Virus record (IMG/VR): IMGVR_UViG_3300037200_000156
Location: 1-36,330 of that record
Length of the DNA: 36,330 nucleotides
Strand: one strand, 5' to 3'
DNA from: a virus
Shown here: positions 941 through 34,952 of the stretch, one piece after another
How the letters are laid out: every line of letters starts with the position of its first letter
Position numbering within the stretch: position 1 is the first letter of the stretch
Program-made: the position numbers and the translations under genes
Notes under the pieces: model-generated
Seen by the model: the letters and a program-made list of their open reading frames with translations, nothing else
The model's database searches: none
Told to the model about the DNA's origin: nothing

Positions 941-3277
941 TTGAAATTAGCAACCAAAATACATCTTAATAAGTTTTTGCCACGGACTTATCAATTGCCA
1001 ATACTTGATGCTATTCTCAATAAAGGATATAAACGAGTATTGGCAATTCTACCACGCCGTGCAGGTAAAGATATTGTTGGTTTTAATCTATGTATACGAG
1101 CATGTTTACAAAAAGTCTGTACGATTTACTATATATTCCCAACCTACAGTCAAGCGCGCAAGGTTATCTGGCAGGGAATAACTAATACTGGTGAACAGAT
1201 AATAGATTATATACCAGAAGAAATTATCAGCTCTAAGAACTCTCAAGAAATGTCCATCCAATTTACCAACGGTTCACGTCTTCAGTTGGTGGGCTCAGAC
1301 AACTACGATTCTTTGATGGGAACCAATCCCCAAGGTATTGTCTTCAGTGAATATGCTCTACAAGATCCACGGGCATATCAATATCTTAGACCGATTCTCA
1401 CGTCAAACGAGGGTTGGGCACTATTTCTAAGTACACCACGAGGAAAGAATCATCTCTTTGAATTATATGAGATCGCTAAACAACATGACTCCTGGTTCTG
1501 TTATAAACTTACCGTTGAAGATACCAATCATATTTCCTTACATGAGATTGAAAAAGAGCGCCATGATGGAGTAATGTCTGAAGATTTAATTCAACAAGAA
1601 TATTATTGTTTCCCTAGTGACCAACAAGTATTAACTTCTATGGGATGTAAGGGTATTGAGTCTATTGTTCCCAATGATATGGTTGTTTCTCATTCCGGTA
1701 GATTGAGAAAAGTGCTGGATATTATATCGCGCGAATACAAGGGCGATATGTATCAGATTAGCTCTTATGGTTCATGTGAGCCAATAATATGTACTCCTGA
1801 TCACCCAATACGTGTATATGATAGATTGACTCAGAAATATACTTGGAAGAAAGCTAAAGAAATTGATAATGAAGATAGATTGGTATTTCCTAAGATGACG
1901 TTGGGTGATAATGAAATATTGAGAGAAGAATTATGTATGTTGCTGGCCTGGTATATTACCGAAGGCAGTTGTTTTAAGAACGGTGTTCAATGGACGGTCA
2001 ACAAAGAGGAATCTCACATTGTAATAGGTTACTTAGTAAGGCTCGGAATATCTTTTGATGAACAAATTAATGGAAGTGTTATAAATATAGTAATTAATTC
2101 TGTTCAACTCGTTGATTTTTTTAAATCGACTTGCGGCTTACAGGCCAACAATAAGCGTATTCCCTTTAATTTAATTGGTGGACATGAAGATAGATTCTTT
2201 CATGAACTTATTAAAGGTGATGGGTGTCATAATATATCTAAGGGTCATGAGAGATATTGTTATACGACAGTTAGTAAGACACTTGCATATCAAGTTCAAT
2301 TACTAGCTAATAGTCTTGGTCTCGGATATGCGACAGGCATATCTAAACGTGAGGCATATAAGGGTAAAATACAGGGTAGGAATGTTAATTGCCAAGAATC
2401 TTACCAGGTAAATATTTCATTCCCAGGTCTTAGAAGTGGTGGAAAATTAATTCGAGCTAGGAACTGTATAGCCGCTAAAATTACCGACATCACCATCTCT
2501 AAATTTGAAGGAACTGTTCACAATATCAAAGTTCAATACGATGAAAGTTATTTAATTGGGGGAAGAGCTGTTCATAATTGTTCGTTTGAATTGGGTGTAG
2601 AAGGCTCATATTATAGTAAATACATAGATAAGCTTCGATTACGCAACCAGATTGGTGAAGTTCCATGGGAGCCGTCATTTAAGACACACACGGTATGGGA
2701 TTTGGGAGTCAGAGACTCAACTACTATTATATTCTTTCAGATCATTGGACAAACTATAAAGATTATTGATTGCTATGAAAACTCTAAGCATGGTCTTGAG
2801 CATTATATTCAAGTGCTCGACACAAAACCTTATAAAAACTCGTATGGTAAACACATAGCACCGCATGATATTAGAGTGCAGGAATTCGGTTCAGGAATCA
2901 CCAGAATCGAGAAAGCTCGCCAATTGGGTATAAGGTTTACCATTGCAGAAAATATTGCTGTAATGGATGGAATTGAGGCCGTTAGATCAACATTGGCTAA
3001 GGTATGGATAGATGAGCGTAATTGCAAGCCATTAATTAAGGCATTGGAGAACTATCGTCAAGAATATGATGCCAAAAGAAAGATATATAAGAATCATCCA
3101 TTGCATGATATTCATTCTCATTTTGCTGATTGTATGAGATATCTTGCAATATCATTGCCTAAGACACGCGATGGTTTATCTTCTCCTGAAGATCTAGATA
3201 AGCGTTATCGCGATACTGTTTTGGGTACTAATTCTAATATGCCATCTGTCTTTCGAGATGATTTACCACCTTATTAA
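941..3277 (+). CDS. terL: terminase large subunit, interrupted by an intein
   Basis: ATP-driven DNA packaging motor and headful nuclease. The precursor is 778 residues; removing the intein (residues 223-546) leaves about 454, normal for TerL. Visible motifs are a Walker A variant LPRRAGKD (37-44), Walker B GIVFSE (132-137), an LSTPRGKN coupling motif (163-170), and after the intein a nuclease domain with VWDLGVRDST and a C-terminal HDIHSHFAD segment. The exteins join as QQEYY-CSFELGVEG, the usual entry to the nuclease domain. TTG 941 is the only plausible start, since an in-frame TGA lies at 932-934; its Shine-Dalgarno is weak. The small subunit candidate is at 35191-35709. Confidence 0.95.
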   Translation: MKLATKIHLNKFLPRTYQLPILDAILNKGYKRVLAILPRRAGKDIVGFNLCIRACLQKVCTIYYIFPTYSQARKVIWQGITNTGEQIIDYIPEEIISSKNSQEMSIQFTNGSRLQLVGSDNYDSLMGTNPQGIVFSEYALQDPRAYQYLRPILTSNEGWALFLSTPRGKNHLFELYEIAKQHDSWFCYKLTVEDTNHISLHEIEKERHDGVMSEDLIQQEYYCFPSDQQVLTSMGCKGIESIVPNDMVVSHSGRLRKVLDIISREYKGDMYQISSYGSCEPIICTPDHPIRVYDRLTQKYTWKKAKEIDNEDRLVFPKMTLGDNEILREELCMLLAWYITEGSCFKNGVQWTVNKEESHIVIGYLVRLGISFDEQINGSVINIVINSVQLVDFFKSTCGLQANNKRIPFNLIGGHEDRFFHELIKGDGCHNISKGHERYCYTTVSKTLAYQVQLLANSLGLGYATGISKREAYKGKIQGRNVNCQESYQVNISFPGLRSGGKLIRARNCIAAKITDITISKFEGTVHNIKVQYDESYLIGGRAVHNCSFELGVEGSYYSKYIDKLRLRNQIGEVPWEPSFKTHTVWDLGVRDSTTIIFFQIIGQTIKIIDCYENSKHGLEHYIQVLDTKPYKNSYGKHIAPHDIRVQEFGSGITRIEKARQLGIRFTIAENIAVMDGIEAVRSTLAKVWIDERNCKPLIKALENYRQEYDAKRKIYKNHPLHDIHSHFADCMRYLAISLPKTRDGLSSPEDLDKRYRDTVLGTNSNMPSVFRDDLPPY
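1607..2578 (+). mobile_element. intein with DOD-type (LAGLIDADG) homing endonuclease, in TerL
   Basis: A 324-residue in-frame protein intron. Block A begins at Cys1 (CFPSDQQVLTSMGCKG). Block B is CTPDHPIRV, with the conserved T-x-x-H. The two endonuclease motifs are LLAWYITEGS and LIKGDGCHN, resembling LAGLIDADG motifs with acidic residues E and D. Block F/G runs through GTVHNIKVQYDESYLIGG to AVHN, followed by Cys+1 of the extein. All splicing residues (Cys1, His of block B, His-Asn, Cys+1) are present, so it should splice. The endonuclease also keeps its acidic residues and may be active. It sits just before the nuclease domain of the terminase. Confidence 0.95.
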
Positions 3278-8949: not shown

Positions 8950-9048
8950 TGTTGAAAAATTATGGAGAGTTCTGATACTATCCCATTCTATTATTTTATA
9001 TTTGCTCTTTAGTGAAGTCGTGACAAAATGTCACGGGAGGATCAGTTG

Positions 9049-9510
9049 ATGAATAATATAGAAGAATTTATTAGAGAAAGTAATAAGATTGAAAATATAC
9101 ATAGAAATCCTACCCAAGAGGAAATAAGTGAATTCAAAAGATTTATAGCTTTGGACAGTGTAAGTATTGAAGATCTTGAAAGATTCGTAAAAATATATGA
9201 ACCTACGGCATATTTGAGAGATAGTTACTCACATTGCAATGTAAGGGTAGGTTCATATTACCCACCATTTTCTGGCCCTCAAATAAGGTCTGATCTAATT
9301 AAAATTCTCAATTGTGAAAAAAGTCCATTTAGTCTTCATGTGGAATACGAAAAACTACATCCATTCTCAGATTGTAATGGCCGATCTGGCAGGGCTCTTT
9401 GGGCGTGGAAGATGAAGCAGTTTCCTTTGGGTTTTCTTCACCATTTTTATTATCAGACTTTGGGGGGGTTTTATGAATCGCAAGAAGACTATTTCTGCAA
9501 AAAAAGCTAG
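9049..9510 (+). CDS. Fic-domain protein
   Basis: A 153-residue single-domain Fic protein; most family members AMPylate or otherwise modify protein hydroxyls. The motif is H104-PFSDCNGRSGR (consensus HPFx-D/E-GNGRxxR) with Cys109 where Gly is usual. SNKIEN at residues 11-16 fits the S/T-xxx-E-G/N inhibitory motif, so an N-terminal regulated (class II) arrangement is likely. ATG 9049 follows GGGAGG; 9028 is a possible alternative. It lies between terminators and head genes and could modify host targets or defend against other phages. Activity with Cys109 is uncertain. Confidence 0.88.
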   Translation: MNNIEEFIRESNKIENIHRNPTQEEISEFKRFIALDSVSIEDLERFVKIYEPTAYLRDSYSHCNVRVGSYYPPFSGPQIRSDLIKILNCEKSPFSLHVEYEKLHPFSDCNGRSGRALWAWKMKQFPLGFLHHFYYQTLGGFYESQEDYFCKKS

Positions 9511-10931: not shown

Positions 10932-11005
10932 GGTACTATAGTTCAGCTGGCTAGAACATCGGATAAATAATCAGAAGGTCGTGGGTTCGACTCCCGCTAG
11001 TACCA
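10932..11005 (+). tRNA. tRNA-like gene, Ile-type body with abnormal anticodon loop
   Basis: The cloverleaf is complete: acceptor GGTACTA/TAGTACC (7 bp), D stem GTTC/GAAC, T stem GTGGG/CCCGC with TTCGACT loop, discriminator A. The anticodon stem TCGGA/TCAGA has one G-A mismatch. The 7-nt loop is TAAATAA, so the invariant U33 is A and the nominal anticodon is AAT, which would read Ile AUU but is not normal in bacteria. No CCA is encoded (ATCA follows). It may be decayed, or its function may not be decoding. Confidence 0.8.
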
Positions 11006-11496: not shown

Positions 11497-14077
11497 AGAC
11501 TTTATGTCCACGTTAAATTTTCTCTGATAGACTTGGAAACCGTAGTGGCAATAGGCTAACCGGCAACAAGGGGCAAGAATGAATAAACCTAATTGTGATA
11601 AATGTAATGTTTTAATAACTTGGGGACTTAATAATAAACATTTCGGCTATTTTAATAAATATATTACCTGTGAAGATTGTGTTATTAAGCTCGAAAATTT
11701 ATTAAAGATTGAAAAAGAAATCACAATAGATAATTTCTTTCAGCCTGAACGCAGCAAGCGAGAAGACGCAACTAATTGTAGATGGAATGAAAGATTTAAA
11801 GAAAAATGTAATTCCAAAAATAAGTATGCGATGCGGTGCTCTGAACATTGTGGAAACACAGTGAGTGAGGCTCAATAAACCTTACCGCCTAGAAATAGGT
11901 CATAAAAAGTAACAGAATTGATAGATGCGAAGATCTCGTTTTACGGTAAACGTGCCGTAACAGTTTATTTGGCATAAGACGTACGTACAAATAAACGAGC
12001 AGGTTAATTTGGCCTGCTTTAAACCCACTCTGATTGACTTGGACCTCCTTATAGGAAGACAAGGCGGAAGCGAAAGCACCGTGAACGACTAAGTGAGAGG
12101 GCGCGAAAGCGAAGCGATAGTCTGAACTCTATAGCAATATAGAGAGGAATCTCCGAAGAGGGAATCCCGCTCGAAAGAGTCATAAAAGTAACAGATTTGC
12201 ACTTTACAAAACCAAGACCCTAAAATGGATGGGGTCTATAAATTTTCTCTGATTGACTTGGAAGCCTACGGCATTTGCTAAGGTGACAGGGGCCAAGGAC
12301 GAGATTTAAACATTATGTTTCATAGGATGAAGATGCCAGCGAGAATTAAGTTTACGAATAGATTCAAGACACTCTTGACGAATAGCTATAGCTTCAGAAG
12401 AAAGCTTATTGCTACCCAATTGCGTGTTATAAGTCTTTCTGAACTTAATCATAATTTCGCATTGTTCTTTTTTGATAACCAGATATGGAAGCAATTGTTC
12501 GCACAGATCCAACAATCGATCTCCGGTAGCTGTCCAAGTGAAAACTTCTCTCTCGAATTTTCTACTAGAAGTAGATCGACAACGAGCAGAAGAAGTTCCG
12601 CTGAAAACAGTATCAATCCAATCGAGCAGTCTCACATCAGTGTTATCAATTTTAAGAAGCCCTCTGTAATGCTCGGTGACATATCCGTCGCCAGCCTTCT
12701 TGGGCAACTTACACATAAAGAAACAACCTTCTCCATCGACAATTCCAGCCATATAAGCCAAATCAATTGGTCTATATTCGGCAGGAACATAATCTTTAGA
12801 TCTTTTATAGTATTTTCTTCTTTCTTGCATAGTATCCTTAATAAAGTTAAGCAGTATTACTATATAAGTATAAATGAAGCAGAACTATTTGTCCAGGCTG
12901 AACGACTAAGTGAGAAAACCCTATTTAGGGATGCGATAGTCTGACCTCCAATCGAAAGTTGGAGAGGTGAATCCGAAGAGGTTTGCCCGCCTAGAAATAG
13001 GTCATAAAAAGTAACAGAATTGGTTCTTAATGAATGTGCGGCTCGTTTGGGTGTTTCGCTAAGGCAAACAGAAGATCAGTTGACTCGTGATATGTTAGCC
13101 TCCACGGCAAGTTTTATTAACTGTACAGGGGGTGTCGATGGCGACAATCCTACAGAAATAACAGCTGCCGATGTTAGTACAGTTGTTCGGGCTTTACTGA
13201 ATAACAATGCTTACACCATCATGGATAACATTGAAGGTGAAGATAAGTTCGGCACAGCTCCAGTTCGTGATGCATATTTTGCATTATGTTCAACTCAACT
13301 AACTGGCAGCTTGGATGGCGTTCCTGGATTTATTCAGAAGAATCAATATCCAGCTCCAATGAATGCGTTGCGTTCAGAATGGGGCAGCATTGGGAATCTC
13401 AGATTCTTGATTTCGTCTATTGGTTCTGTGTCTCAAAATGCATCTGCTAATGGCAATGATATTTATAATATCTTCTGCGTTGGCATGGAGGCTAAAATGT
13501 TAGGTCTCCTTAAATTTCTTCTGATTGACTTGGAAACCCCACGGGGCGACAGGGCGGAAGTAGCACTCGCTACACCGTGAACGACTAAGTGAAGAAACAC
13601 CGAAAGGTGAAGCGATAGTCTGAACTCTATGGAAACATAGAGAGGAATCTCCGAAGAGGGAATCCCGCCACGAAAGTGGTCACGAAAGTAACAGAATTGT
13701 ACGCATGTATTGAGCAGGATGGTTATTCTGCTTCGTTCATAAACAAATATGTGAACGTTAAATCTTCTCTGATTGACATGGAAGCCCAAGCTTAAGAGCG
13801 GGTGACATGGGGCAAGCGAAAGCAGCCTAAACGACTGAGTGAGAAGACCTCGAGAGAGGATGCGACAGTCTGAACACTACGGATAACGTAGTGAGGGAGA
13901 TTCGAAGAAGTTTCCCCGCCACATGAGTGGTCACAAAAGTAACAGAATTGATATAGACCGCCAATTTATGACGGACCTTTGGCATTAAATGCTTCAGTTG
14001 GCTATAAATTTGCGGAAGTGCCAAGGATTACTAATGATCTCTGGGTTACCAATCTACGTTGTACATTAGTATCTTAA
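11260..14077 (+). CDS. major capsid protein, N4gp56 family, split by five group I introns
   Basis: Exons: 11260-11496, 11921-11947 plus 11979-12004 (with a 31-nt interruption between), 12200-12221, 13023-13493, 13700-13740, 13951-14077; total 951 nt, 316 residues. Each boundary fits a group I P1 helix ending in U.G, an intron ending in G, and reading-frame continuity. The joined protein reads LTAVD-IDAKISFYG-TYVQINEQV-TLQNQDP-VLNECAARLG, matching the N4gp56 pattern (YGD..E.TD...EDPVL) without gaps, and ends PRITNDLWVTNLRCTLVS. Forms the icosahedral shell (HK97 fold by family). Expression needs all introns, and the 31-nt element, to be removed or bypassed. Unspliced ORFs in the region are not separate genes. 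Confidence 0.9.
11497..11920 (+). ncRNA. group I intron 1 of capsid gene (424 nt)
   Basis: P1 is exon GTGGAT with internal guide GTCCAC, last pair U.G. A P10 AUAGA/UUUAU with exon 2 is possible. The conserved start TTCTCTGATAGACTTGG and end GTAACAGAATTG, with a P9 hairpin CCTA-GAAA-TAGG, match the other four introns. The core is the most diverged of the five and holds an insert in the P6 area that encodes a small ORF. It interrupts the codon series after Asp79. Confidence 0.9.
11579..11878 (+). CDS. intron 1-encoded zinc-ribbon-like ORF
   Basis: A 99-residue reading frame. Its first 55 residues (MNKPNCDKCN... YITCEDCV) come from an insert not present in the other introns and have two Cys-x2-Cys pairs spaced like a zinc ribbon. 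The remaining residues are translated intron core and may be non-functional. AAGGGG precedes the ATG, but this is also conserved intron core. It lacks LAGLIDADG, GIY-YIG or HNH motifs. Confidence 0.4.
   Translation: MNKPNCDKCNVLITWGLNNKHFGYFNKYITCEDCVIKLENLLKIEKEITIDNFFQPERSKREDATNCRWNERFKEKCNSKNKYAMRCSEHCGNTVSEAQ
11948..11978 (+). other. 31-nt intervening element in capsid exon 2 (core-less group I-like mini-intron or bypass)
   Basis: Located exactly between the Gly codon of ...ISFYG and the Thr codon of TYVQINEQV. It breaks frame (31 nt) and has an in-frame TAA (11975-11977). P1 UUACGGU/GCCGUAA has 7 pairs ending in U.G at the exon boundary. A P10 pairing ACGU (11950-11953) with exon ACGU (11979-11982) is possible. 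The element ends in G. A 9-bp stem GTTTATTTG/CAAATAAAC (11963-11971 with 11988-11996) spans the 3' boundary. There is no space for a catalytic core. Internal GTAACAG matches the 3' ends of the real introns. Confidence 0.75.
12005..12199 (+). ncRNA. group I intron 2 of capsid gene (195 nt)
   Basis: P1 is exon GCAGGT with guide GCCTGC, ending U.G. The conserved start CTCTGATTGACTTGG, the P7 strands GACTA and TAGTC, the P9 stem CTC-GAAA-GAG and the 3' end GTAACAGATTTG are all visible. It is a minimal ORF-less ribozyme, closely similar to intron 4, and is flanked by very short exons (26 nt upstream, 22 nt downstream). Confidence 0.92.
12222..13022 (+). ncRNA. group I intron 3 of capsid gene (801 nt)
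   Basis: P1 is AGACCCT with guide GGGGTCT, ending U.G. A weak P10 GUUC/GGAU is possible. The ribozyme halves are 12222-12305 and about 12885-13022, with a large insert in the P6 loop that carries an antisense homing endonuclease. The 3' half keeps GACTAAGTGAG, GCGATAGTCTGA and a P9 CCTA-GAAA-TAGG. Confidence 0.92.
12306..12830 (-). CDS. LAGLIDADG homing endonuclease, antisense inside intron 3
   Basis: 174 residues. The motif LAYMAGIVDGEGCF (residues about 24-37) is a LAGLIDADG helix with the acidic residue, followed by a typical beta saddle (YRGLLKIDNTDVRLLDWI) and a LLPYLVIKKEQCEIMIKF segment. With one motif it should act as a homodimer and cut the intron-less capsid gene to spread the intron. 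It runs opposite to the intron, with its own AAGGATACT ribosome site and an AT-rich upstream region on the minus strand, so it can be expressed without capsid transcription. Confidence 0.93.
   Translation of the reverse strand: MQERRKYYKRSKDYVPAEYRPIDLAYMAGIVDGEGCFFMCKLPKKAGDGYVTEHYRGLLKIDNTDVRLLDWIDTVFSGTSSARCRSTSSRKFEREVFTWTATGDRLLDLCEQLLPYLVIKKEQCEIMIKFRKTYNTQLGSNKLSSEAIAIRQECLESIRKLNSRWHLHPMKHNV
13023..13493 (+). CDS. capsid exon 4 (central 157 residues)
   Basis: Largest exon, beginning VLNECAARLGVSLRQTEDQL and ending FCVGMEA. It carries the core of the shell protein. The apparent start at 13020 belongs to the intron end, not a real initiation site; the exon joins exon 3 in frame as DP-VLNE. 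Confidence 0.92.
13494..13699 (+). ncRNA. group I intron 4 of capsid gene (206 nt)
   Basis: P1 is GGAGGCT with guide GGTCTCC (one G.U inside, last pair U.G). The core shows CTTCTGATTGACTTGG, GACTAAGTGA and GATAGTCTGAAC, a P9 stem CCAC-GAAA-GTGG, and the end GTAACAGAATTG. It is ORF-less and shares a long identical stretch with intron 2 (about 29 nt around GAATCTCCGAAGAGGG), so one probably arose from the other. Confidence 0.93.
13741..13950 (+). ncRNA. group I intron 5 of capsid gene (210 nt)
   Basis: P1 is GTTCAT with guide GTGAAC, ending U.G; P10 AUAU/AUAU with exon 6. The core shows TTCTCTGATTGACATGG, GACTGAGTGAG and GCGACAGTCTGAAC (P7 pair changed in both strands). P9 is CCAC-ATGA-GTGG, without the GAAA loop of the others. 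ORF-less. The exon joined upstream is only 41 nt. Confidence 0.93.
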
Positions 14078-32003: not shown

Positions 32004-32032
32004 TTGATAAATAACATTATAAATGGTATGAT
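32004..32032 (+). promoter_or_regulatory. promoter for the plus early genes
   Basis: TTGATA (32004-32009), 17-nt spacer, TATGAT (32027-32032). Near consensus for sigma70, about 38 nt before the HTH gene at 32071. Back to back with the minus promoter. Confidence 0.75.
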
Positions 32033-32070: not shown

Positions 32071-32286
32071 ATGCAATCATTTAAAGAATTAATAAGAAAT
32101 CAACAAGAAATACGCTATCAATTAACAAAATTACTAACAAATGAGCCAATGACATTTCGTGAATTATCCCGCGTTATTGGTATTGCGACAAGTACTTTGA
32201 CAGATTTTTTAAAGAAAGAGAAGGATGTAGCATTTAAGCCATTATTTAAGATTAAAAACTATATTAATAAAAGGGGATTAGTATGA
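32071..32286 (+). CDS. small HTH protein, 71 aa
   Basis: HTH segment MTFRELSRVIGIATSTLTDFLKK, then a basic C-terminal part (KIKNYINKRGLV). Cro/regulator-like size and position next to divergent promoters. ATGA overlap with the next gene. Confidence 0.75.
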   Translation: MQSFKELIRNQQEIRYQLTKLLTNEPMTFRELSRVIGIATSTLTDFLKKEKDVAFKPLFKIKNYINKRGLV

Positions 32287-32369
32287 TCTGTGATTATATT
32301 GTTATGGCATTAATGATAGCGATATCTTTTATTGCGGGCTTTATTTACTGTTTCATCAGATACAATTAA
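32283..32369 (+). CDS. tiny membrane protein, 28 aa
   Basis: MICDYIVMALMIAISFIAGF... is one transmembrane helix. Overlaps the HTH gene end (ATGA), so translated by coupling. Unknown role. Confidence 0.5.
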   Translation: MICDYIVMALMIAISFIAGFIYCFIRYN

Positions 32370-32380
32370 TTGGAAGTGTA

Positions 32381-32665
32381 ATGACAGAAAAATCTTATAA
32401 ATGTACGAATTGTAGTTTTGTTATTAATGAAGAAGTAGTTGGATTAGACTATTCAAGTAGATTGATTGAAGATCTAAAACAAGTTAATAGGCAAGCAATT
32501 AACTGTTTAAAAACAAATAATGTAAACACCATTGGTGATTTATTGAATACTAATAGAGAATTATTATTTAGTCTACGGGGGTTAGGTATAAAGGGATTAA
32601 CTCAAATATATGACTCATTGCTTAAATTAGGTATAAAGCCACACTTTAATCCACAACACAGATAA
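32381..32665 (+). CDS. RNA polymerase alpha-CTD-like protein
   Basis: 94 residues. The C-terminal 55 residues (LKQVNRQAINCLKTNNVNTI, then GDLLNTNRELLFSLRGLGIKG) follow the pattern of the alpha-subunit C-terminal domain, including the helix-hairpin-helix RGLGIKGLTQI that contacts DNA. The N-terminus has KCTNC, possibly half of a metal site. It is not an alpha subunit, since the assembly domain is missing. It may compete for UP elements or be a transcription factor acting on host polymerase. Confidence 0.8.
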   Translation: MTEKSYKCTNCSFVINEEVVGLDYSSRLIEDLKQVNRQAINCLKTNNVNTIGDLLNTNRELLFSLRGLGIKGLTQIYDSLLKLGIKPHFNPQHR

Positions 32666-32685
32666 TAGACATGTATTGAATTATC

Positions 32686-32714
32686 TTTACATGGAACAAT
32701 TTCTACGGTATAAA
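32686..32714 (+). promoter_or_regulatory. promoter for the replication gene
   Basis: TTTACA (32686-32691), 17-nt spacer, TATAAA (32709-32714), predicted start near 32721, about 110 nt before the next gene. Confidence 0.65.
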
Positions 32715-32741
32715 ATTAATATTATATTTTGAAAAACAAAA

Positions 32742-32770
32742 CCCCCACTCTACACAGGGTAGAACAGGGG
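32742..32770 (-). terminator. hairpin in the leader; terminator-like on the minus strand
   Basis: CCCC/GGGG and TCTAC/GTAGA pair around ACAGG. Minus strand gives TTTTGTTTTTC after it, so it can stop antisense transcripts. On the plus strand it is a stable leader hairpin. Confidence 0.55.
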
Positions 32771-32831
32771 CCTTGAAATTTAAACGCTTACCAGTAACGA
32801 CTTTTCTTCTCTTCCCAGGGACTGTTCGTTA

Positions 32832-34346
32832 TTGGACAAGCTAACAAAATGGTACTTTTGCATGAATAAGTGTAAGCGCAATCCCTCGGAAAATCAAGTA
32901 AATCTTAAAAGTTTAATTCCACTTGCGCCGAAATTCATAAAATGTCCGGGTTCTTATCGAGTAGCGTTATCTAAAACAGAGAAAAAGATCTTAGATATTA
33001 TTGTTAAGATCAGAAAAAATGGCACCAAGATACGTAATGGCTACATAGCAACTCTTGCCAATTGTAGTATCCGCACCATACAACGAGCAACCGCAAAGTT
33101 CCAACGCGACGGTATCATTTCTAAAGAACAGGATAATACATACGCACCCAATAGATATTACAATAATATCCCGCGCCATATATCACAGACTTTATGGTTG
33201 AATTCCCAAACCAAAGAACAACAAACTCTCTATACAACCCATGGTATTATCAAGCGCCATGATGGAAGTATTAAATTCTATATTCCAGAGCCAATCAAAG
33301 AAAATGTCATACAGTTAAATAGTTATATTAATTATATACCCTTCTTACAAACCCTTACCCCTTTAGTTAAACAAGTAAAGTCACTTAATCTAAGTAAGAT
33401 AGAACCTGTTGCGCATAATTATCAGAATTATCAGAACCATAAGGGTAATAATTTAATTAAAGAGCTATCATCACAATTTAAGGGGAACATGCTTACTGAT
33501 ACTCAGAGGAAATGGATATTTAAAGCGGATGAGATGAAAGATCCTCGTTTGAAAGATATTGTTTGTGGTGTTAGTGTTCAATCACAATTAATTACGCCGA
33601 TTGTTGAATCTGTGGCAAAATTACTTGAATTGGATTTAAAAGATCAGTTAAAAGTAGCAATTTATCCTGATAAGGCATTAGAATTTGCTTACAAAGAAGC
33701 GCAAGATATAATTTCTGGAGAAATAGTTTATACGAAACAAATCCATGATAGGACAGGATGGTTTTTGGGAATTGCTAAAAAGTTTTGTACTGATAATCAT
33801 CTTTCAGCAGACTGGCCATTGTTTTATCAAATTTGTAAGATTATGGATATTGATGCAAATGAAAAGCACATTCCCAAGCCCTTAAAAATAAACCACAAAA
33901 AGGGTAACAGATCATTAACCCCCCCATTAAAAACATATATAAAAACTCATAGCAATAAGAAACAGAATCAAACATCAAATCCTTCTGGCTCAGAAATATC
34001 ACCAGAAGAACATGCTTTGTATATTAAATCAATTAACGGCCTCGAAGAACAGATCAAGCATATAGAAAAATATCTAAAGAACCCCTTTTTATGGCACAAA
34101 CTAGAAGAGGCCAAAAAGCAGATCGAAGAAGAATTTAAGTTTCCTATGCCAAGTGATGATGTATTATACCGCTCAGCAGCAAGAACTCAGCCTGTCATGA
34201 TTAAAGAGTTGGCGGATAAAAAAGTTGAATTAGTTGAATTGGTAGAAAAATTAAAAAATACTCCGATAGAAACTGATACTATTGCTGATGTTGATATTGA
34301 TATTGATGAAATCGGTATGCACATTGATTTCGATACTTTCTCTTAA
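32832..34346 (+). CDS. probable replication initiator or helicase-loader-like protein, 504 aa
   Basis: The N-terminal winged-helix region (SKTEKKILDIIVKIRKNGTK, then IRNGYIATLANCSIRTIQRA, RYYN) is of the type found in phage replication initiators. A basic linker and coiled-coil C-terminus (KSINGLEEQIKHIEKYLKN) follow, ending acidic. No helicase or nuclease motif is visible. TTG 32832 is a possible start; ATG 32862 is an alternative. Position with RusA suggests DNA replication. Confidence 0.6.
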   Translation: MDKLTKWYFCMNKCKRNPSENQVNLKSLIPLAPKFIKCPGSYRVALSKTEKKILDIIVKIRKNGTKIRNGYIATLANCSIRTIQRATAKFQRDGIISKEQDNTYAPNRYYNNIPRHISQTLWLNSQTKEQQTLYTTHGIIKRHDGSIKFYIPEPIKENVIQLNSYINYIPFLQTLTPLVKQVKSLNLSKIEPVAHNYQNYQNHKGNNLIKELSSQFKGNMLTDTQRKWIFKADEMKDPRLKDIVCGVSVQSQLITPIVESVAKLLELDLKDQLKVAIYPDKALEFAYKEAQDIISGEIVYTKQIHDRTGWFLGIAKKFCTDNHLSADWPLFYQICKIMDIDANEKHIPKPLKINHKKGNRSLTPPLKTYIKTHSNKKQNQTSNPSGSEISPEEHALYIKSINGLEEQIKHIEKYLKNPFLWHKLEEAKKQIEEEFKFPMPSDDVLYRSAARTQPVMIKELADKKVELVELVEKLKNTPIETDTIADVDIDIDEIGMHIDFDTFS

Positions 34347-34451: not shown

Positions 34452-34952
34452 ATGGATCAACATATTGAGGAATCATATAAACATTCGTCTAAATCAATCC
34501 TTGAGTCATATCCCCGCACCAAAATATATACTGTTCACGGCGATCCCTTAGCATTAGCACGACCGAGATTTACCACAGGACGCGTTTGGGATTGCCAAAA
34601 ACAATTAAAATTTACTTTCAGCTTAGCATTACAAGAACAACATAATAATGAACCCCTTTTTACAGGACCATTACATATAGACATGGTTTTTTATATGCCT
34701 ATGCCTAATATAAGTATTTCTAGAAAAGTAAAACTTAATAATACCTATCATATTTTTACACCAGATCTTACAAATCTAGAGAAGTTCGCAGAAGATGTTG
34801 CAACTGGAATTATTTATGCAAATGATTGTATAGTTTCATCTTTTTATTCATATAAGATTTACGATAATAATCCGCGTACTGATATTATTGTTACAGAATT
34901 AAAGGGATTTCAGTTAGTAATGAAAAAAGAGTTTGTTGTACGAGGAGAGTAG
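34452..34952 (+). CDS. RusA-like Holliday junction resolvase
   Basis: 166 residues. FTPDLTNLEKFAEDVATGII, then YANDCIV has the layout of RusA (PDxDNLxK, then DD region). The first Asp (D105) and the later Asp (D125) are present but the usual second Asp of PDxDN is Thr107. RusA needs several acidic residues to bind the catalytic metal, so activity may be changed. It would resolve branched DNA before packaging. Confidence 0.85.
   Translation: MDQHIEESYKHSSKSILESYPRTKIYTVHGDPLALARPRFTTGRVWDCQKQLKFTFSLALQEQHNNEPLFTGPLHIDMVFYMPMPNISISRKVKLNNTYHIFTPDLTNLEKFAEDVATGIIYANDCIVSSFYSYKIYDNNPRTDIIVTELKGFQLVMKKEFVVRGE

Follow-up and report, generated by a model that had tools for sequence, protein, structure and literature searches.

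The ORF at 32381–32665 (+) encodes a genuine stand-alone C-terminal domain of the RNA polymerase alpha subunit (alpha-CTD). It lies in a 36,330-base IMG/VR entry, analysed over its whole length and hereafter referred to as the window, which represents an uncultured tailed phage with a P22-type portal. The protein belongs to a known but little-studied kind and is not unique. Its 94 codons run from ATG to stop exactly at these positions, and GGAAG stands a few bases 5′ of the ATG. The features of the gene and its surroundings are provided in Table 1.

Table 1. Features at and around the alpha-CTD gene, in window coordinates.
Feature	Position	Strand	Basis
Promoter-like site TTGATA-17-TATGAT, TG before −10	32004..32032	+	Consensus scan
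71-aa small HTH (Cro/XRE-like), first gene of presumed operon	32071..32286	+	Weak HTH matches
28-codon hydrophobic (membrane) peptide ORF	32284..32370	+	Read from sequence; ATG overlaps HTH stop (ATGA)
94-aa alpha-CTD-domain protein	32381..32665	+	ORF, PF03118 34.9 bits, AF2 model, PDB matches
CxxC pair, C8-T-N-C11	32402..32413	+	Translation; tail pLDDT <50 at residues 1–8, 11–21
Alpha-CTD domain proper, residues 26–86	32456..32638	+	PF03118, PDB sequence matches, pLDDT 77–93 over 21–90
Hairpin between alpha-CTD and replication genes	32737..32775	.	T-run tail on minus strand
504-aa HTH protein, probable replication initiator	32832..34346	+	HTH matches; position common to relatives
RusA Holliday-junction resolvase	34452..34952	+	PF05866 4.4e-15

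Domain assignment

The PF03118 profile (RNA_pol_A_CTD) matched residues 26–80 with an E-value of 1.2e-8 and a score of 34.9 bits, exceeding the 23.8-bit cut-off, and the generic HHH_5 model scored the 94-aa protein at 15.3 bits, under its cut-off of 27. Nearly all matches of a phmmer search against PDB chains were RNA polymerase alpha subunits, with a best E-value of 2.3e-6. With a profile built in this analysis, the alpha-CTD ORF scored 43.7 bits and the next-best ORF of the window 5.8, and 5,000 residue shuffles of the former peaked at 15.7 bits. Identity to the other alpha-CTDs compared was 21–32%. The NCBIfam rpoA equivalog was matched only by its final ~60 positions (36.2 vs 227.8 bits), and the alpha N-terminal assembly domain is missing from the protein. 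Because the rpoA models match through C-terminal positions only and far under cut-off, the protein represents the domain and not the complete alpha subunit.

An earlier, sequence-only reading of the window had described an alpha-CTD module with a Cys pair. The module was borne out by the PF03118 profile, the match to solved alpha subunits and the predicted structure, and the pair is present as C8 and C11 within YKCTNC, in an N-terminal tail that AlphaFold2 (AF2) predicts to be disordered. The N-terminal part contains this single CxxC rather than the two Cys/His pairs of a zinc ribbon, and C8/C11 would at best constitute half a metal site.

Predicted structure

An AF2 model was built from a nine-sequence alignment, with a mean pLDDT of 77. 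By blocks of ten residues, pLDDT was 77–93 across residues 21–90 and mostly below 50 over residues 1–21. Helices were predicted at residues 37–45, 51–56, 59–64 and 70–82, which form a compact helical alpha-CTD fold with an HhH-like hairpin. Among the best 50 rows of a Foldseek search against the PDB, every one was an alpha chain of RNA polymerase, alone or within a complex, and VIA-align comparison with the E. coli alpha-CTD yielded a Z of 11.2 and an rmsd of 1.4 Å over 66 residues. The best unrelated HhH protein in the VIA list was yeast Dmc1 (Z 8.6), the list comprising only the chains ranked highest by Foldseek, so that the absence of other HhH families from it proves nothing. Structural superposition had been suggested in the sequence-only reading as a check on its assignment; in the structure comparisons, the leading match was the alpha-CTD and not an unrelated HhH protein.

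DNA-contact residues

DNA binding by the alpha-CTD depends critically on R265 (PMC11434276), as does its contact with UP elements and activators (PMC2988021). In a contact-residue alignment numbered by a Methylococcaceae RpoA, the window protein retains D259, N268, C269, K271, G296 and K298, with N41, G69 and K71 corresponding to N268, G296 and K298, residues looked for in a UP-element reader. The altered columns are 265 (Q), 297 (I), 299 (G) and 302 (Q), and E273 is changed as well. The residue aligned with R265 is Q38. Of the 22 phage and plasmid copies compared, 21 have arginine in this column and the window copy is the sole exception; the five RpoA sequences have arginine as well. A one-residue insertion lies just before the contact helix, and R37 directly precedes Q38; the latter is favoured at the 265 site because the AF2 helix starts at 37. 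The changed R265, S299 and E302 columns weaken the earlier suggestion that the protein could bind UP elements, and classical UP-element binding appears doubtful as judged from the aligned residues.

Genome neighbourhood

The plus-strand cluster consists, in order, of the HTH gene, the membrane peptide, the alpha-CTD gene, the 504-aa replication-type protein, RusA, a MerR-like gene and the small terminase. In relatives, the order ERF, HTH, replication protein, RusA, TerS, TerL and portal is kept, and several have small HTH ORFs at the place matching that of the window. The alpha-CTD slot is vacant in several of these relatives (e.g. L011), which marks the gene as an accessory one inserted among the early genes. 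Going by gene order only, it would be expressed with the early genes. In the consensus scan, the total count of promoter-like sites in the region was not above chance. Two terminator-like hairpins were found vs 0.4 expected, with a fold z of −2.5 for 32660–32840; no obvious minus-strand gene ends at the strong hairpin that follows the alpha-CTD gene. Reading through the ORFs of the whole 36 kb revealed no RNA polymerase gene, and the phage should therefore depend on the host polymerase.

Elsewhere in the window, the large terminase ORF (941–3277, 778 aa) includes intein splicing and LAGLIDADG domains, and many relatives possess a 450-aa terminase without them. A LAGLIDADG-type endonuclease ORF at 12306–12830 (−) runs antisense and adjoins a capsid-like ORF (13020–13580); in Chlamydiota locus L222, the ORF matching it overlaps a 388-aa capsid-type ORF on the opposite strand. 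The window further encodes a tRNA-Ile (10932–11005, +), whose predicted anticodon AAT is unusual for bacterial tRNA-Ile, and a short Fic-domain protein (9028–9510, +; PF02661, 26.0 bits vs a cut-off of 24).

Host of the phage

A scan of species genomes detected portal relatives in one Chlamydiia MAG and one Methylococcaceae MAG. In the follow-up scan, 4 of 116 Chlamydiota genomes had matches vs 1 of 151 genomes from the order to which the Methylococcaceae MAG belongs. One of the Chlamydiota matches is a remnant in which TerL and a fragment of the portal are left, amid ordinary bacterial genes of a 125-kb contig. These data suggest that tailed phages of Chlamydiota exist and, on the basis of draft genomes, the window phage likely has a chlamydial host. 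Portal/terminase relatives of the window phage in Chlamydiota genomes are found at loci L221, L222 and L223.

Short-frame alpha-CTD proteins (<~360 aa) were absent from 79 Chlamydiota genomes, so a host donor of the lone domain was not found among them. Some Chlamydiota have a second protein, of ~370–420 aa, that contains an internal alpha-CTD (L111:860-2128 (−), L112:1296-2480 (+), L113 and L114); the copy aligned is without the R265 arginine and has H in this column.

Distribution of alpha-CTDs in phages

No whole-protein relative of the 94-aa protein was confirmed in IMG/VR, so conservation of the gene as a unit has no support. Within the portal-defined phage group, PF03118 was detected in 2 of 83 records, a lower bound given that many of these are fragments. 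In the siblings IMGVR_UViG_3300028800_000207 and _000306, the alpha-CTD gene is located between TerL and portal.

The mixed alpha-CTD alignment was too variable for scanning use. A DNA motif scan of IMG/VR for NCL-x6-TIGD[L/I] matched 33 stretches, and an alpha-CTD ORF was found at E <1e-9 in 24 of these loci, some of which may be host fragments. A motif variant with 20 instead of 19 free bases matched 14 stretches, none with an alpha-CTD ORF, and thereby acted as an unplanned negative control. Pfam confirmed near-lone domains of 100–101 aa (L184, L214), a sigma-70 region 4 joined to an alpha-CTD (L201), and an XRE HTH followed by sigma-70 region 4 and alpha-CTD (L203); by inspection, Cys-rich N-terminal parts precede the domain in L200 and L192. 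Phage hallmark or phage-type replication/integrase genes lie close by in L184, L200, L201 and L203. The proteins that combine sigma-70 region 4 and alpha-CTD (L203:256-1149 (−), L207:3152-4045 (+) and L201:3058-3696 (−), with an XRE-type HTH in front in L203 and L207) have a domain arrangement that would be striking in a transcription factor of a phage.

The sequence-only reading had called such a free-standing module uncommon in phages, which proved too strong, as public entries carry the name and the motif scan retrieved the loci described above; BFVD already holds phage proteins named for the alpha-CTD, as found by structure matches. Phage alpha-CTD proteins are under-described rather than uncommon, and the literature searched, mostly without subscription journals, yielded no publication about an alpha-CTD in free form from a phage.

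Two sets of tblastn matches were rejected as free alpha-CTDs. The fecal “Bacteriophage sp.” matches that were translated corresponded to ordinary bacterial rpoA, as did three of the four plasmid matches examined. A real plasmid exception is Pantoea pPA-MXU-90 (L166:2945-4234 (+)), with a 429–430-aa protein that has a C-terminal alpha-CTD.

Proposed role and alternatives

We tentatively propose, at somewhat less than an even chance, that the phage-captured alpha-CTD acts as a small, trans-acting early regulator on host transcription. The main argument is that elsewhere in phages the domain is fused to HTH and sigma-70 region 4, which points to its use for transcription. The profile score, the structure matches, the retained contact columns, the lack of a polymerase gene among the ORFs read, and the small HTH gene and the replication genes as neighbours were also counted for this reading. 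The hairpin G67-L-G69, which resembles a generic HhH, counts against it, as do the changed R265, S299 and E302 columns and the failure to find a whole-protein relative in IMG/VR. Beyond the observed identity, fold and sporadic accessory presence of the domain, we infer each functional step. The protein would be made from an early plus-strand operon, its alpha-CTD-type surfaces would bind promoter-upstream DNA, contact sigma region 4 or further holoenzyme partners, or do both, and the host polymerase would thereby be biased at promoters of the phage or of the host. Two copies may be joined by the CxxC tail via a metal ion or a disulfide, or the tail may provide a docking site for a partner. With the R265 position altered, contact with proteins is no less likely than UP-element binding of the classical type.

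A serious alternative in view of the neighbouring genes and the altered DNA-contact residues, though on the unlikely side in our estimation, is that the domain is a general HhH module that binds DNA or junctions in replication or recombination, not transcription. The gene sits inside a replication/RusA cluster, and the alpha-CTD genes of L200 and L203 are also near helicase and polymerase genes. The GLG hairpin, the sub-threshold HHH_5 score and the Dmc1 N-domain superposition point in the same direction. However, in sequence as in fold, the alpha-CTD is clearly a closer match than any of the HhH proteins tested.

Alternatively, a free alpha-CTD might serve as a decoy that titrates host activators off the polymerase and silences activator-dependent host genes. 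This would fit the occurrence of the domain on its own, as a protein that lacks the alpha N-terminal domain should not assemble into polymerase, and the retention of K271 with a changed E273, but the low identity to the alpha-CTDs compared makes well-conserved host-activator surfaces unlikely. We consider this role decidedly improbable. That the gene is a decaying captured fragment, now functionless, is very improbable: it is an orphan in IMG/VR and sporadic in the phage group, the key contact residue is lost and the possible zinc site is only half present, but the frame is intact, the start context is good, the domain fold is predicted with confidence, and useless genes are quickly lost from phage genomes.

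Returning to the early transcription regulator, a broader version that we consider unlikely holds that phages repeatedly capture the alpha-CTD as a portable polymerase-recruiting module, in fusions with MerR, XRE, sigma-70 region 4 or Cys-rich parts, and that the window version, in a chlamydial host, has exchanged DNA contact through R265 for contact with proteins only, these being host sigma or polymerase. If phage alpha-CTDs work in trans, they would provide non-enzymatic steering of the host polymerase via the very domain that T4 Alt and ModA modify enzymatically. The proteins collected, which range from near-lone domains up to fusions with sigma-70 region 4, offer ready constructs for testing a detached alpha-CTD, and a copy without R265 would allow contact with DNA and contact with proteins to be told apart.

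Comparison with known systems

The window protein resembles the C-terminal domain of bacterial RpoA (PF03118; PDB 1lb2, 1z3e and 3n97) in profile, fold and domain length, and differs from it by the missing alpha N-terminal domain, the changed R265, S299 and E302 positions, and the CxxC tail. Phage action on the host alpha-CTD or alpha is documented for T4 Alt and ModA and for phiKMV Rac (PMC2988021, PMC7824862), which are alpha-modifying enzymes and not homologues of the window protein.

Among phage proteins, the alpha-CTD was matched by structure in four UniProt entries annotated as “RNA polymerase, alpha subunit, C-terminal”, namely A0A6J5MNY7, A0A6J5L490 and those of Mycobacterium phage Mithril (A0A5Q2WLP1) and Rhodococcus phage Finch (A0A2P1JY10). 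These four entries differ in length (98–240 aa) and flanking regions, with 19–27% identity. Bacillus phage Goe8 (QDP42789.1) and Microbacterium phage Mazun gp26 (QNL30328.1) are small proteins with a C-terminal alpha-CTD like that of the window, but they have other N-terminal regions and keep R265. The two siblings share a portal-defined group with the window (68–71% portal identity) and likewise contain a C-terminal alpha-CTD, preceded by a MerR HTH and a coiled coil in _000207 (262 aa) and by a Cys-rich segment in _000306 (182 aa). In contrast to the window gene, theirs are located between TerL and portal rather than beside a replication gene, and their partner domains are different.
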